Assembly (NCBI GenBank): GCA_022447025.1
Contig: JAKUUL010000007.1
Location: 1 to 41,203 of the forward strand
Length of the DNA: 41,203 nt
Direction: 5' to 3'
Origin: SAR86 cluster bacterium
GTDB lineage: Bacteria > Pseudomonadota > Gammaproteobacteria > Magnimaribacterales > Magnimaribacteraceae
Shown: positions 16,307-27,441 of the stretch, piece after piece
Numbering within the stretch: position 1 is the stretch's first letter
How the letters are laid out: every line of letters starts with the position of its first letter
Notes under the pieces: generated by a model
The model's database searches: none
What the model was told of the DNA's origin: nothing
Seen by the model: only the letters and a program-made list of their open reading frames with translations
Made by a program: the position numbers and the translations under genes

Positions 16307-16864
16307 CTAGAAATCGAGTAGATCCTTCTCTTTAACTGACAGAGCTTCATCTACCTTGTTTACAAACAAGTCAGTGAGCTTTTGAATCTCTTCTTCGCCT
16401 TGCCTCTCTTCATCTTGAGAAATTTCTTTTTCCTTTAAAAATTCTTTTAGTTGTGAATTCCCTTCCCTTCTAACATTCCTTATAGAAATCTTTGTATTTT
16501 CTGCTTCTGATCTTGCTTTCTTAATAAATTCCTTCCTAGTCTCTTCAGTTAAATCAGGAAGAATTACCCTAATAGTATCTCCCGAAGTGGCAGGATTTAG
16601 CCCCAACTCTGACTCCATAATGGCTTTCTCAATATCTTGCACAACAGCTTTCTCCCACGGAATAATTGCTATCGTTTTAGCATCTTCAACGGATATATTC
16701 GCCAATTGCGATAATGGGGTCAGGGTGTCGTAATAGTCTACTTTAATATCGTCCAATAGAGCTGGGCTTGCCCTACCTGTTCTTATTCTGTTAAAAGCAG
16801 CATCCAAAGACTGTAGGCTTCTTTCCATTCCAACTTTGGTGTCTTCTATAATCTCTTGATACAT
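16307..16864 (-). CDS. frr: Ribosome recycling factor
   Basis: The product is 185 residues, the usual RRF length. With EF-G it splits post-termination ribosomes. The RTGRASPALLDDIKVDYY segment near residues 28-45 is highly conserved, as is the long three-helix bundle pattern and C-terminal helix. It begins only 4 nt after the tsf stop. In most gammaproteobacteria pyrH (UMP kinase) separates tsf from frr; here it is absent. Start ATG at 16864. Confidence 0.97.
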   Translation of the reverse strand: MYQEIIEDTKVGMERSLQSLDAAFNRIRTGRASPALLDDIKVDYYDTLTPLSQLANISVEDAKTIAIIPWEKAVVQDIEKAIMESELGLNPATSGDTIRVILPDLTEETRKEFIKKARSEAENTKISIRNVRREGNSQLKEFLKEKEISQDEERQGEEEIQKLTDLFVNKVDEALSVKEKDLLDF

Positions 16865-16868
16865 TATT

Positions 16869-17732
16869 CTAAGTTTTCTCTATTTGAGACATAACTTCAG
16901 CTGCAAAATCTGTTTCTTCTATTTCAATTCCCTCTCCTACTTCAAATCTTTTGAATTGGATAACTTCAGCTTGATTTTTATCCAGTAAGGATTTTATCTT
17001 TAGTCCCGGATCTTTAACAAAGTCTTGTTCTGTAAGACTTACTTCACTTAGAAATTTTTTCACTTTTCCTTCAACCATCTTAACAATAATTTCTTCGGGT
17101 TTACCTGAGTCTGCAGATTGTGCTTCAAAGATTTCTTGTTCTTTTTTTACTGTCTCTTCGGGGATATCCTGTGGGGTAATGGCTAAAGGGTCAGTAGCTG
17201 CTATGTGCATAGCTATGTCCTTAGCTACTTCTTCATTACCTCCTTTTAAACACACTATGCAGGCAATCTTCTTATTTGAGTGCAGATATATGCCTGTATG
17301 ATCAGCCGAATCATCACTAATAAATACCCTTCTTACTACTATATTTTCTCCCAATTTTTGTACTAGCTTTTCTCTCTTATCGCTCAAATCTCCTTCCATT
17401 AACTGATCTAATTCTAGATATTCACCGGAGGAAAAAGTCTTAATGACTTCTTCAGAGAACTCCACAAAAGAACCATCTTTAGCAACAAAATCGGTTTCAC
17501 AATTAATTTCAACCATAAAACCTATAGAGTTAACTAATTGGATCTGTAAAATGCCGTCGGCAGCAGACCTTCCAGCTTTCTTGCTTGCTTTAATACCGCT
17601 AGATTTTCTTAATTCCTCAATGGCTTGGGTAATATCTCCATTAGTTTCTAACAAAGCCTGTTTGCAATCCATCATTCCCATTCCGGTTCTTTCTCTGAGC
17701 TCTTTTACAAGAGAAGCTGATATTTCAGTCAT
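16869..17732 (-). CDS. tsf: Elongation factor Ts
   Basis: The product is 287 residues (283 in E. coli). EF-Ts exchanges GDP for GTP on EF-Tu. The N-terminal UBA-like domain contains LRERTGMGMMDCKQAL, and the core contains the TDFVA motif near residue 80, which contacts EF-Tu. The ATG at 17732 directly abuts the rpsB stop (TAAATG), so it depends on rpsB translation or read-through and is expected to share the S2-mediated control of the rpsB leader. Confidence 0.97.
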   Translation of the reverse strand: MTEISASLVKELRERTGMGMMDCKQALLETNGDITQAIEELRKSSGIKASKKAGRSAADGILQIQLVNSIGFMVEINCETDFVAKDGSFVEFSEEVIKTFSSGEYLELDQLMEGDLSDKREKLVQKLGENIVVRRVFISDDSADHTGIYLHSNKKIACIVCLKGGNEEVAKDIAMHIAATDPLAITPQDIPEETVKKEQEIFEAQSADSGKPEEIIVKMVEGKVKKFLSEVSLTEQDFVKDPGLKIKSLLDKNQAEVIQFKRFEVGEGIEIEETDFAAEVMSQIEKT

Positions 17733-18758
17733 TTAAGTTTCCTTTCCTTCCTCAACTTCTTCGGATTTAGAATCGACTTTAGGATCTTCTTTCTGTTCTT
17801 CTGTTTCTACAGACTCCTCTTTGTCTTTTGATTCTTCAGCTACTTTAGCTTCCTTTCCCTTCTCATCTTCTTTCTGTTCTTCAGTTTCTACTGGCTCCAC
17901 AATTTCTTTTATTTCTTCAGCGTCTTTAGCTTCTTTTATCTTTTCATCTTCTTGAGGTTCTTTAGGTTCTTTCACCTTATCCTCTTCAAGATCCTTTTTA
18001 TTAGAAGATTCTTGTTTCTCTTCTTTTTTAATTATTTTTGGTCCAGTTGAATCTGGAGAAGGCTTCAAGCCAGTGGCAAGCTTAGACCCTTCTAAACAAG
18101 CATCAGAAACTGCTCTAGTAAATAAAGAAATAGACCTTATGGCGTCATCATTTCCCGGCACTAAATAATCAATGCCCTCGGGACTACTGTTGCTATCTAC
18201 TATTCCAACAATAGGTATACCCATTTTGCTAGCTTCAGATATAGCAATAGCTTCTCTCTTAACATCAATCACAAACAAAGCATCAGGTAACCCACCCATG
18301 TCTCTTACTCCGCCTATGGCTTTCTCAAGCCTATCTATTTCTCTTTGTAGTTTTAGGCCTTCTTTTTTAGTAAGTTTGTCAAAAGTTCCATCTTCTTTTT
18401 GTCTTAGAAGGTTTTCAAGTCTATTAATTGAAGATCTGATGGTTTTATAGTTTGTTAGCATCCCTCCTAACCACCTTTCGTTCACATAGGGCATGCCACA
18501 TCGCTCTGCCTCTTCCTTAAGAATATTCGTAGCTGATCTTTTAGTTGCAACAAAAAGAATCTTATTGTTCTTCTGTGCAACTGATTTAATAAAAGCCAAG
18601 GCAGGCTTCAAAAGCTCTACTGTGTGCTGTAGATCAATCATGTGAATTTTATTACGAATTCCAAAAATGTAGGGTTCCATTTTGGGATTCCAGTATTTAG
18701 TTTGGTGTCCGAAGTGGACACCTGCTTGGAGCATATCTTCTATTGATATATCGGCCAT
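17733..18758 (-). CDS. rpsB: 30S ribosomal protein S2 with long acidic C-terminal tail
   Basis: The product is 341 residues, about 100 longer than E. coli S2 (241). Residues 1 to about 232 are a normal S2 (opening [17 protein letters not shown]). From about 235 to the end the protein is almost only Glu, Lys, Asp, Ser, Pro and Val, with no hydrophobic core, and contains a tandem 27-residue duplication (271-297 and 298-324). The tail is in frame and the stop is followed at once by tsf, so it is part of the gene and not a fusion error that I can see. Translation begins at the ATG at 18758 after a good AGGAGA. The 5' leader carries a possible S2-binding structure. Confidence 0.96.
17787..17948 (-). 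repeat. Tandem 81-bp duplication inside rpsB tail
   Basis: Two adjacent 81-bp units (17868-17948 and 17787-17867) encode residues 271-297 and 298-324 of S2. Both begin DEK-KEAK and end in VETEEQKE; the middle is diverged. The DNA is also clearly similar between units, pointing to a real tandem duplication followed by drift rather than chance low complexity. Confidence 0.75.
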
Positions 18759-18846
18759 TTGCTCTCCTAATCTATGAACGATTTTGATCGTTCGGGTTAT
18801 TCTTCCGTGTTTTACTACTCTTAACTAAAGATGAGCAATCCTTTAG
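18759..18846 (-). promoter_or_regulatory. rpsB mRNA leader with two hairpins and an SD-blocking pseudoknot
   Basis: Reading the minus strand 5' to 3', hairpin A (18846-18825) pairs CTAAAG with CTTTAG around a 10-nt loop. Hairpin B (18793-18776) pairs GAACGAT with ATCGTTC around CAAA. The loop of A contains TTGCTC (18838-18833), which is perfectly complementary to GAGCAA (18764-18759), the bases joining the AGGAGA ribosome binding site to the ATG. This loop-to-SD pairing would form a pseudoknot hiding the start. Gammaproteobacterial rpsB leaders are known to mediate feedback by S2 (Rfam t44 family); homology of this leader to t44 is inferred, not tested. Confidence 0.55.
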
Positions 18847-18941
18847 CACCCAAGAGATAGAAACAAACACGTGCTACATTATTTTTAAAATAAATGAATT
18901 TATCCTAAAAAGGGGTGCGTTTATACCATATTTCTAGTAAT

Positions 18942-19682
18942 TCAAGAATATATATCTGACATGGAATAGAGCCCATTTGGCTTAGATTTCAGCCATTTTG
19001 CTCCTATCAGTGCCCCTTTCGCATAAATAGAGCGATCCAAGGCTTTGTGACTTAGCTCAATTCTTTCGAGATCATTTGAAAGAATTATTTTGTGTTCCCC
19101 AGCTAAATCCCCAGTCCTTTCACTTTCTATGTTTATAGGGCTTTCTCTTTCTATTCTTTCTGATAAAAAATTTGCTAAATCTAACGAGGTTCCTGAAGGT
19201 AAATCCTTTTTATCTTTATGGTGTTTTTCTGAAATTTGTAAATTATCAAAGTAAGAAAGTGAATCTGAAGTTAGATCAATTACTTTCTTTAGATAAGCTA
19301 TGCCCACACTTGTATTAGGTGCTTTTAATAAAGGTATAAACTCAGAAGCTTCTTCAATACTGCTTAAATCTGACTCTTGATAACCTGTGGTCCCTAAAAG
19401 AAGAGCCGTATTGTGATTTTTCGCGTATTCAACCGATTGCAGACTAAATTTTGCTTCAGAGAAATCTATCAGTACATCTACTTTAGGAAGATCGCTCAAT
19501 TTAGAAGATAGCTTAACGTCTATCCTCTTTTCTCCAGCCATTTCTCCTAAATCTTTTCCAATATTTGAATTTGATTCACTAGCAACTCCGCCAATAAGTT
19601 TAAAATCCTTATCTTTAGAGATAGCATTAATAAGAGCAAGCCCCATTCTTCCTGTTGAACCTGATATAGCAATCTTTAACAT
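18942..19682 (-). CDS. dapB: 4-hydroxy-tetrahydrodipicolinate reductase
   Basis: The product is 246 residues, slightly shorter than E. coli DapB (273). DapB uses NAD(P)H in lysine and diaminopimelate synthesis. The nucleotide-binding GSTGRMG is at residues 8-14, and the catalytic region EKHHKDKKDLPSGTSL in the C-terminal half carries the catalytic His and Lys and the substrate loop. The ATG at 19682 is 6 nt after the dnaJ stop, so it is probably read from the dnaK operon. In Pseudomonas dapB is followed by carA-carB; here the rpsB operon lies downstream instead, after a 183-nt gap. Confidence 0.95.
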   Translation of the reverse strand: MLKIAISGSTGRMGLALINAISKDKDFKLIGGVASESNSNIGKDLGEMAGEKRIDVKLSSKLSDLPKVDVLIDFSEAKFSLQSVEYAKNHNTALLLGTTGYQESDLSSIEEASEFIPLLKAPNTSVGIAYLKKVIDLTSDSLSYFDNLQISEKHHKDKKDLPSGTSLDLANFLSERIERESPINIESERTGDLAGEHKIILSNDLERIELSHKALDRSIYAKGALIGAKWLKSKPNGLYSMSDIYS

Positions 19683-27088: not shown

Positions 27089-27441
27089 GGGGGCGAACTG
27101 GATTCGACGGCAGTTACAAACCCACGAGTGCATGTCGAGAAGGTAGTAATTCTCGTAAATCAACTACTACAAACATGTTAGTTGGCGAAAACGCAGACTA
27201 CGCTTTAGCAGCTTAAATTGCTAACTGTTTTAACCTGGTGTCCGTGCCATTGTTACGACAGACGACTTCACGGACTGCGGACGTTGTAGTTCTCATATAC
27301 AACTTCTTAAGTAAACATGAGATCGCTTAATAAGCCCTGTTCATCGGGCCCTATTAAGCAAAATTAATAGATGAAACTAAACATGTAGATCTTATGGCAG
27401 AGTACTGGTGGACGCGGGTTCAATTCCCGCCGCCTCCACCA
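27089..27441 (+). ncRNA. ssrA: Transfer-messenger RNA (tmRNA)
   Basis: The 353-nt RNA starts GGGGGCGAACTGGATTCGACG, whose first seven bases pair with CGCCTCC at 27430-27436 region of the 3' end (one G-U), followed by discriminator A and an encoded CCA. The T arm GGGTTCAATTCCC is intact. The reading frame for the tag runs 27184-27216: GGC GAA AAC GCA GAC TAC GCT TTA GCA GCT TAA, giving GENADYALAA, preceded by UAGUU as in E. coli (UAGUC). Downstream GC-rich complementary segments (for example around 27331-27357) are the pseudoknots. It rescues stalled ribosomes with SmpB, encoded nearby. Confidence 0.96.

Follow-up and report, generated by a model that had tools for sequence, protein, structure and literature searches.

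The rpsB gene of this SAR86 genome is preceded by a leader in which a hairpin loop is complementary to the bases joining the Shine-Dalgarno (SD) sequence to the start codon, and the locus raises the question of whether the two pair and help to close the ribosome binding site (RBS). The question has a counterpart in Escherichia coli, where S2 represses the translation of rpsB, needing S1 for this, and where the RBS is reported to lie outside the S2 operator; for that reason it is described as unclear how the distantly bound S2 blocks its own mRNA (review PMC10931766). The sequence-only reading of the present locus had proposed a leader of the t44 family with two hairpins, A and B, and an SD-occluding pseudoknot stabilised by S2, and had further suggested that leader and S2 tail co-evolved.

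For the comparisons, the order was split into four families within the genome collection: f1, to which the genome studied belongs, f2, f3 and f4. The closest named matches of rpsB were to SAR86 cluster bacteria. In the S2 tree, f1 grouped with f3 at modest support (84/75) and f2 and f4 branched elsewhere; judged from these sequences, f1 and f3 are probably sisters. Covariation in f1 was assessed from 25 leaders, and the core of the loop-SD complement was counted over 64 distinct f1 and f3 leaders.

In the window, i.e. the whole analysed stretch of 41,203 nucleotides, the leader was read from the sequence and the list of open reading frames (ORFs). It lies in the gap between rpsB and the preceding 246-aa gene, which ends at 18942. 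A scan of the leader region for sigma-70 consensus promoters found none. Homologues of rpsB were present in 56 of the 61 relatives. In one relative (L048, G015:C1:89321-90002) a frameshift and stop codons interrupt rpsB, which may be an assembly error, and the leader is intact. Downstream, frr follows directly after tsf and pyrH is absent between them (window 16307-17732), unlike the gene order of E. coli. The window also includes a tmRNA gene (27089-27441, plus strand, 185 bits). The features of the leader and its gene are the following.

18871-18759, minus strand: 5' leader of rpsB, immediately upstream of the gene.
18806-18871, minus strand: helix P1, CGUGUUU (18871-18865) with AAACACG (18812-18806), from sequence, MFE fold and covariation.
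18815-18860, minus strand: helix P2, CUA.CUCUU (18860-18852) with AAGAGUAG (18822-18815), from MFE fold and covariation.
18848-18851, minus strand: junction strand GGGU, 5' half of PK1, the known S2-leader pseudoknot; GGU invariant in the aligned f1 and f3 leaders.
18824-18847, minus strand: helix P3 (hairpin A), GCUAAAG (18847-18841) with CUUUAGU (18830-18824), from covariation.
18833-18836, minus strand: GCUC in the apical loop of P3, candidate partner of GAGC (PK2); GCUC in 57 and GCUU in 7 of the 64 distinct leaders.
18794-18797, minus strand: ACCC, 3' half of PK1; ACC invariant in the f1 and f3 leaders.
18776-18793, minus strand: hairpin B, GAACGAU (18793-18787), loop CAAA (18786-18783) and AUCGUUC (18782-18776), from sequence, fold and covariation.
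18764-18768, minus strand: Shine-Dalgarno sequence AGGAG, from sequence.
18761-18764, minus strand: GAGC over the SD end and the spacer, a candidate for pairing with the P3 loop; in 64 of 64 leaders.
18764-18759, minus strand: GAGCAA, joining the SD to the rpsB ATG, from sequence.
18758-18756, minus strand: rpsB start codon ATG, from sequence.
17733-18758, minus strand: rpsB (ribosomal protein S2), an ORF of 341 aa with an acidic C-terminal tail of about 115 aa, followed by tsf.

Covariance models were used for assigning the leader to a class. Model R1, built from 17 leaders of the sister family f3 only, had a single match in the window (18879-18793, minus strand, 51.7 bits, E 3.4e-11). It also matched the E. 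coli leader (31 bits, E 1.3e-5) and further the leaders of other gammaproteobacteria and of f2. The Rfam t44 model (RF00127), which has a gathering score of 44 bits, gave at that score no match in the window, in the genome to which it belongs or in the leaders, and passed the cut-off in none of 203 genomes. Below the cut-off it matched the rpsB leader of a genome of the same genus (33.1 bits, E 1.8e-5 over the genome) and, in several f3 genomes, regions directly upstream of rpsB, with up to 41.2 bits (E 7e-8). A permissive Rfam scan of the leader alone produced chance matches only, and the Rfam rpsB model (RF01815) left the leader unmatched, its best match in the genome being on another contig (10.5 bits). 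Because of the R1 matches and the sub-threshold t44 matches in relatives, the leader is classed as an S2 leader of divergent sequence that falls outside the curated threshold of t44. Also the traits of the class are present in the window: a P1 stalk with P2 and P3, the GGGUGC junction, ACCC after P1, and a position in the 5' UTR of rpsB. On this comparative evidence the leader firmly belongs to the S2 leader class (rpsB motif/t44) as a divergent member. The earlier assignment to the t44 family stands for the kind of leader and not for the Rfam model itself, which leaves an entire order of abundant marine bacteria undetected. That the leader is both an S2 leader and a site of translational repression is considered likely, the repression being drawn by analogy from E. 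coli.

The core of the leader consists of the three helices P1-P3 and the putative pseudoknot PK1. In the 25 f1 leaders, 97.6% of the P1 cells were paired and double changes occurred at four of the five pairs. P2 had double changes at four of six pairs and covaried also in f3, while P3 had 96.4% of its cells paired, with double changes at four of nine pairs in f1 and five of eight in f3. The whole structure, here P1, P2, P3 and hairpin B, included 105 double-change cells in the f1 leaders compared with 32.5 after shuffling, and 92.2% of its cells were paired compared with 35-42% when partners were slid. For P1-P3 in the f3 leaders, the corresponding numbers of double-change cells were 48 and 17.7. 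The PK1 cells were paired in 85-100% in the f1 and f3 alignments, and the junction GGUGC was invariant in the aligned leaders. Since the PK1 core is invariant in both families, covariation within them cannot confirm it, and PK1 is instead backed by homology with the S2-leader class, for which the J2-3 pseudoknot with the 3' extension after P1 is diagnostic (Meyer et al. 2009, PMC2704228). The MFE fold of the unconstrained leader comprised hairpins A and B plus two outer helices and left the P3 loop, the SD, GGGU (18851-18848) and ACCC (18797-18794) essentially unpaired; the folding z of the whole leader was only -1.5. Hairpin A (CTAAAG 18846-18841 and CTTTAG 18830-18825, with TTGCTC 18838-18833 in the loop, minus strand) is placed as the sequence-only reading had it, and both hairpins of that reading were borne out by covariation, hairpin A in the f1 and f3 alignments and hairpin B in that of f1, but helices P1 and P2 and the GGGU-ACCC complement of PK1 had been overlooked.

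Hairpin B, likewise located where it had been proposed with 7 bp and a CAAA loop, starts immediately past the ACCC of PK1 with no linker. In the 25 f1 leaders, 98.7% of its cells were paired and double changes were found at five of six pairs; taken alone, the hairpin had 178 of 180 cells paired compared with 141.5 after shuffling. Family f3 has it as a shorter stem of 4-5 bp. Judged from the alignments, it is firmly a well-supported, covarying addition specific to the lineage, inserted between PK1 and the SD. Automatic parsing, in which a few of the outliers had wrong start codons, gave a median spacing between ACCC and the start codon of 38 nt for f1 and 31 nt for f3, compared with 12 nt for f2 and 18 nt for 87 leaders from other gammaproteobacteria. 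The extra sequence of f1 is mostly hairpin B, after which approximately seven unpaired nucleotides remain before the SD. In f2 (L158-L191, L040-L047), the 3' strand of PK1 nearly abuts the SD (e.g. AACCCCGGAGG), so that pseudoknot formation alone could block the SD there. Five leaders of other gammaproteobacteria (L194, L241, L248, L262 and L280) have a long segment separating the pseudoknot from the SD, and a hairpin appears to be inserted in it, as seen by eye.

Being stable and situated in a leader, hairpin B might alternatively act as a transcription attenuator, and a terminator scan does mark it, on the opposite (plus) strand. On the coding strand, however, the sequence following the hairpin reads CAUAGAUUAGG with no U run, and the scan finds no terminator there. 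Because the U run is absent, the attenuator was rejected as highly improbable.

The complement between UUGCUC in the P3 loop and GAGCAA between SD and ATG is present as described earlier. As a single match of six nucleotides it is not striking, runs of at least six occurring in about 2% of shuffled loops in f1 and 0.6% in f3. Its 4-bp core GCUC/GAGC was kept in all 64 distinct f1 and f3 leaders, in 57 with Watson-Crick pairs and in seven via G-U. Of the 25 genes in the window that have an SD, rpsB is the only one with GAGC ahead of its start. Most of the remaining invariant positions in the leaders fall in the S2-leader core or at the SD and start, which argues that the loop and GAGC bases are under constraint. 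Across gammaproteobacterial S2 leaders generally, pairing of loops with their own SD was marginally above permuted pairing (118/2000) and the runs were short; thus loop-SD complementarity is not general in these leaders. The S2 leader itself is of a known kind, and hairpin B and the conserved loop-SD complement are lineage-specific additions to it.

Conservation of this kind could reflect a real second pseudoknot, PK2, serving as the main on-off latch, with GCUC masking GAGC at the SD and S2 stabilising the closed form. The core persists while the sequences of the P3 stem and hairpin B differ, GAGC is retained at three different offsets from the SD among the 64 leaders (GGAGAGC, GGAAGAGC and GGAGC), and f2 lacks both partners together, with GAGC in none of its 26 distinct leaders. 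Moreover, the loop and SD left free by the MFE fold of the window leader would be opened at a cost of 0.1 kcal/mol, and the 6-bp duplex in isolation has an energy of -6.4 kcal/mol. The pairing did not covary, however, when tested by aligned columns: the fifth and sixth of the six pairs vary with no compensatory change, the fifth was formed in 32 of 64 leaders compared with 33.6 after shuffling, and when partners were swapped, the loops matched their own SD no better than those of relatives, both within f1 and within f3. In many relatives the P3 loop has just 4-5 nt, so the closing A-U pairs need to be opened for the four pairs to form, and in six relatives that were folded the opening of the six positions cost 1.8 to 7.5 kcal/mol. 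As f1 and f3 are probable sisters, the complement may also have a single origin. Of the two outcomes named in the sequence-only reading as speaking against it, the lack of covariation was thus found, and loss of the complement from close relatives was not. Taken together, PK2 as the main latch is regarded as doubtful.

The same invariance without compensatory change in either strand would be expected if the GCUC loop were kept for a contact with a protein (S2 or S1) or with another part of the RNA, and GAGC were kept separately, the two never pairing with each other. The leaders contain other invariant positions, CAC, GGUGC, GGA and AACC, which are of recognition type for the class. This explanation requires a coincidence, as the complementary invariant tetramers are jointly present in f1 and f3 and jointly absent in f2, and GAGC does not extend the complementarity of the SD to the anti-SD sequence, taken here in its generally known form. 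Such independent constraint is a serious possibility, though one falling short of probable. If, instead, the complement were a functionless product of shared ancestry and chance, the small size of the core (four pairs) would be unsurprising, with runs of at least four in 28-45% of shuffled loops and f1 and f3 probably of one origin; yet the eight core bases have stayed unchanged while neighbouring positions, both paired and unpaired, diverged widely, and this explanation appears improbable.

The loop and the spacer are, on the evidence of the alignments, constrained and their conservation is real, and pairing between them is not demonstrated. A weak contact of 4-6 bp between the GCUC loop and GAGC may, tentatively, help to keep the RBS shut. 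Following the E. coli model, S2 in excess over 30S subunits would bind the leader together with S1 and repress rpsB and hence tsf. In the f1 lineage, hairpin B adjoins PK1 and probably stacks on it, in which case the SD would be about seven unpaired nucleotides from the folded domain despite 25 nt in sequence. The simplest reading would be that formation of PK1 close to the SD matters and that hairpin B keeps PK1 and the SD near each other in space, to which the P3 loop may add a direct SD contact in f1 and f3. A more far-reaching version, according to which the S2 leader of one SAR86 branch gained a direct RBS latch, hairpin B distancing the SD from PK1, the P3 loop pairing with GAGC and S2 at the junction closing the site, is rather unlikely; if true, such a latch would be a link between operator and RBS that is absent from the E. 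coli model. A natural variant whose operator seemingly reaches the RBS via a short loop contact would allow the E. coli question to be probed with a few point mutations.

The suggested co-evolution of leader and S2 tail was not supported. In the S2 of the window, a tail of about 115 residues (37% D+E, 21% K+R) follows the core, and acidic tails, of 31 to more than 100 residues, occur in f1, f2, f3 and f4 alike, the lengths being lower bounds for several f2, f3 and f4 loci that end inside the gene. As f2 and f4 are tailed without having the loop-SD complement, the tail lends the proposal no support. The tail length varies among near-identical relatives, from 115 aa in the window to 79 aa in L002, and a stretch ending ETEEQKED is present twice in window 17736-18100, which suggests an internal duplication. 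In the streamlined family f4, two rpsB upstream regions (L049 and L050) searched with R1 included no S2 leader, and the leader seems to have been lost there; viral contigs with S2 yielded no relatives. In f3 (L031-L039, L132-L157), all 35 of 35 rpsB genes start with AUGGA followed after a few bases by UCCAU, with the serine codon always UCC, so that the start codon lies inside a possible 5-bp hairpin; the arrangement was found in none of 31 f1 genes.

Ribosomal protein leaders such as that of rpsO/S15 contain SD-occluding pseudoknots, and pairing of the P3 loop with the RBS would act similarly, a likeness of idea only with no kinship claimed. Rfam rpsB (RF01815) describes a leader of the same gene, yet the model does not match at the SAR86 leader. 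The rpsB motif described by Meyer et al. in 2009 (PMC2704228) likewise has P1 with P2/P3, and its J2-3 pseudoknot has a counterpart in the GGGU/ACCC complement of the SAR86 leader. The text on that motif mentions neither loop-SD pairing nor hairpin B. Closest is the E. coli rpsB-tsf operator/t44 (RF00127), which likewise lies 5' of rpsB-tsf and has an outer helix ending GGAGG/GGAAG, the GGGUGC junction, the P3 hairpin and AACCC after P1. Covariance models of E. coli/t44 and of the leaders of SAR86 relatives detect each other both ways, the SAR86 window leader being under the detection limit of t44. In the E. coli leader, ACCCC and the SD are separated by a short A+U-rich stretch, and a loop of this complementarity is absent. 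The leaders of SAR86 f1 and f3 differ in having hairpin B inserted between PK1 and the SD, and in a P3 loop whose GCUC is the complement of the GAGC at the SD.
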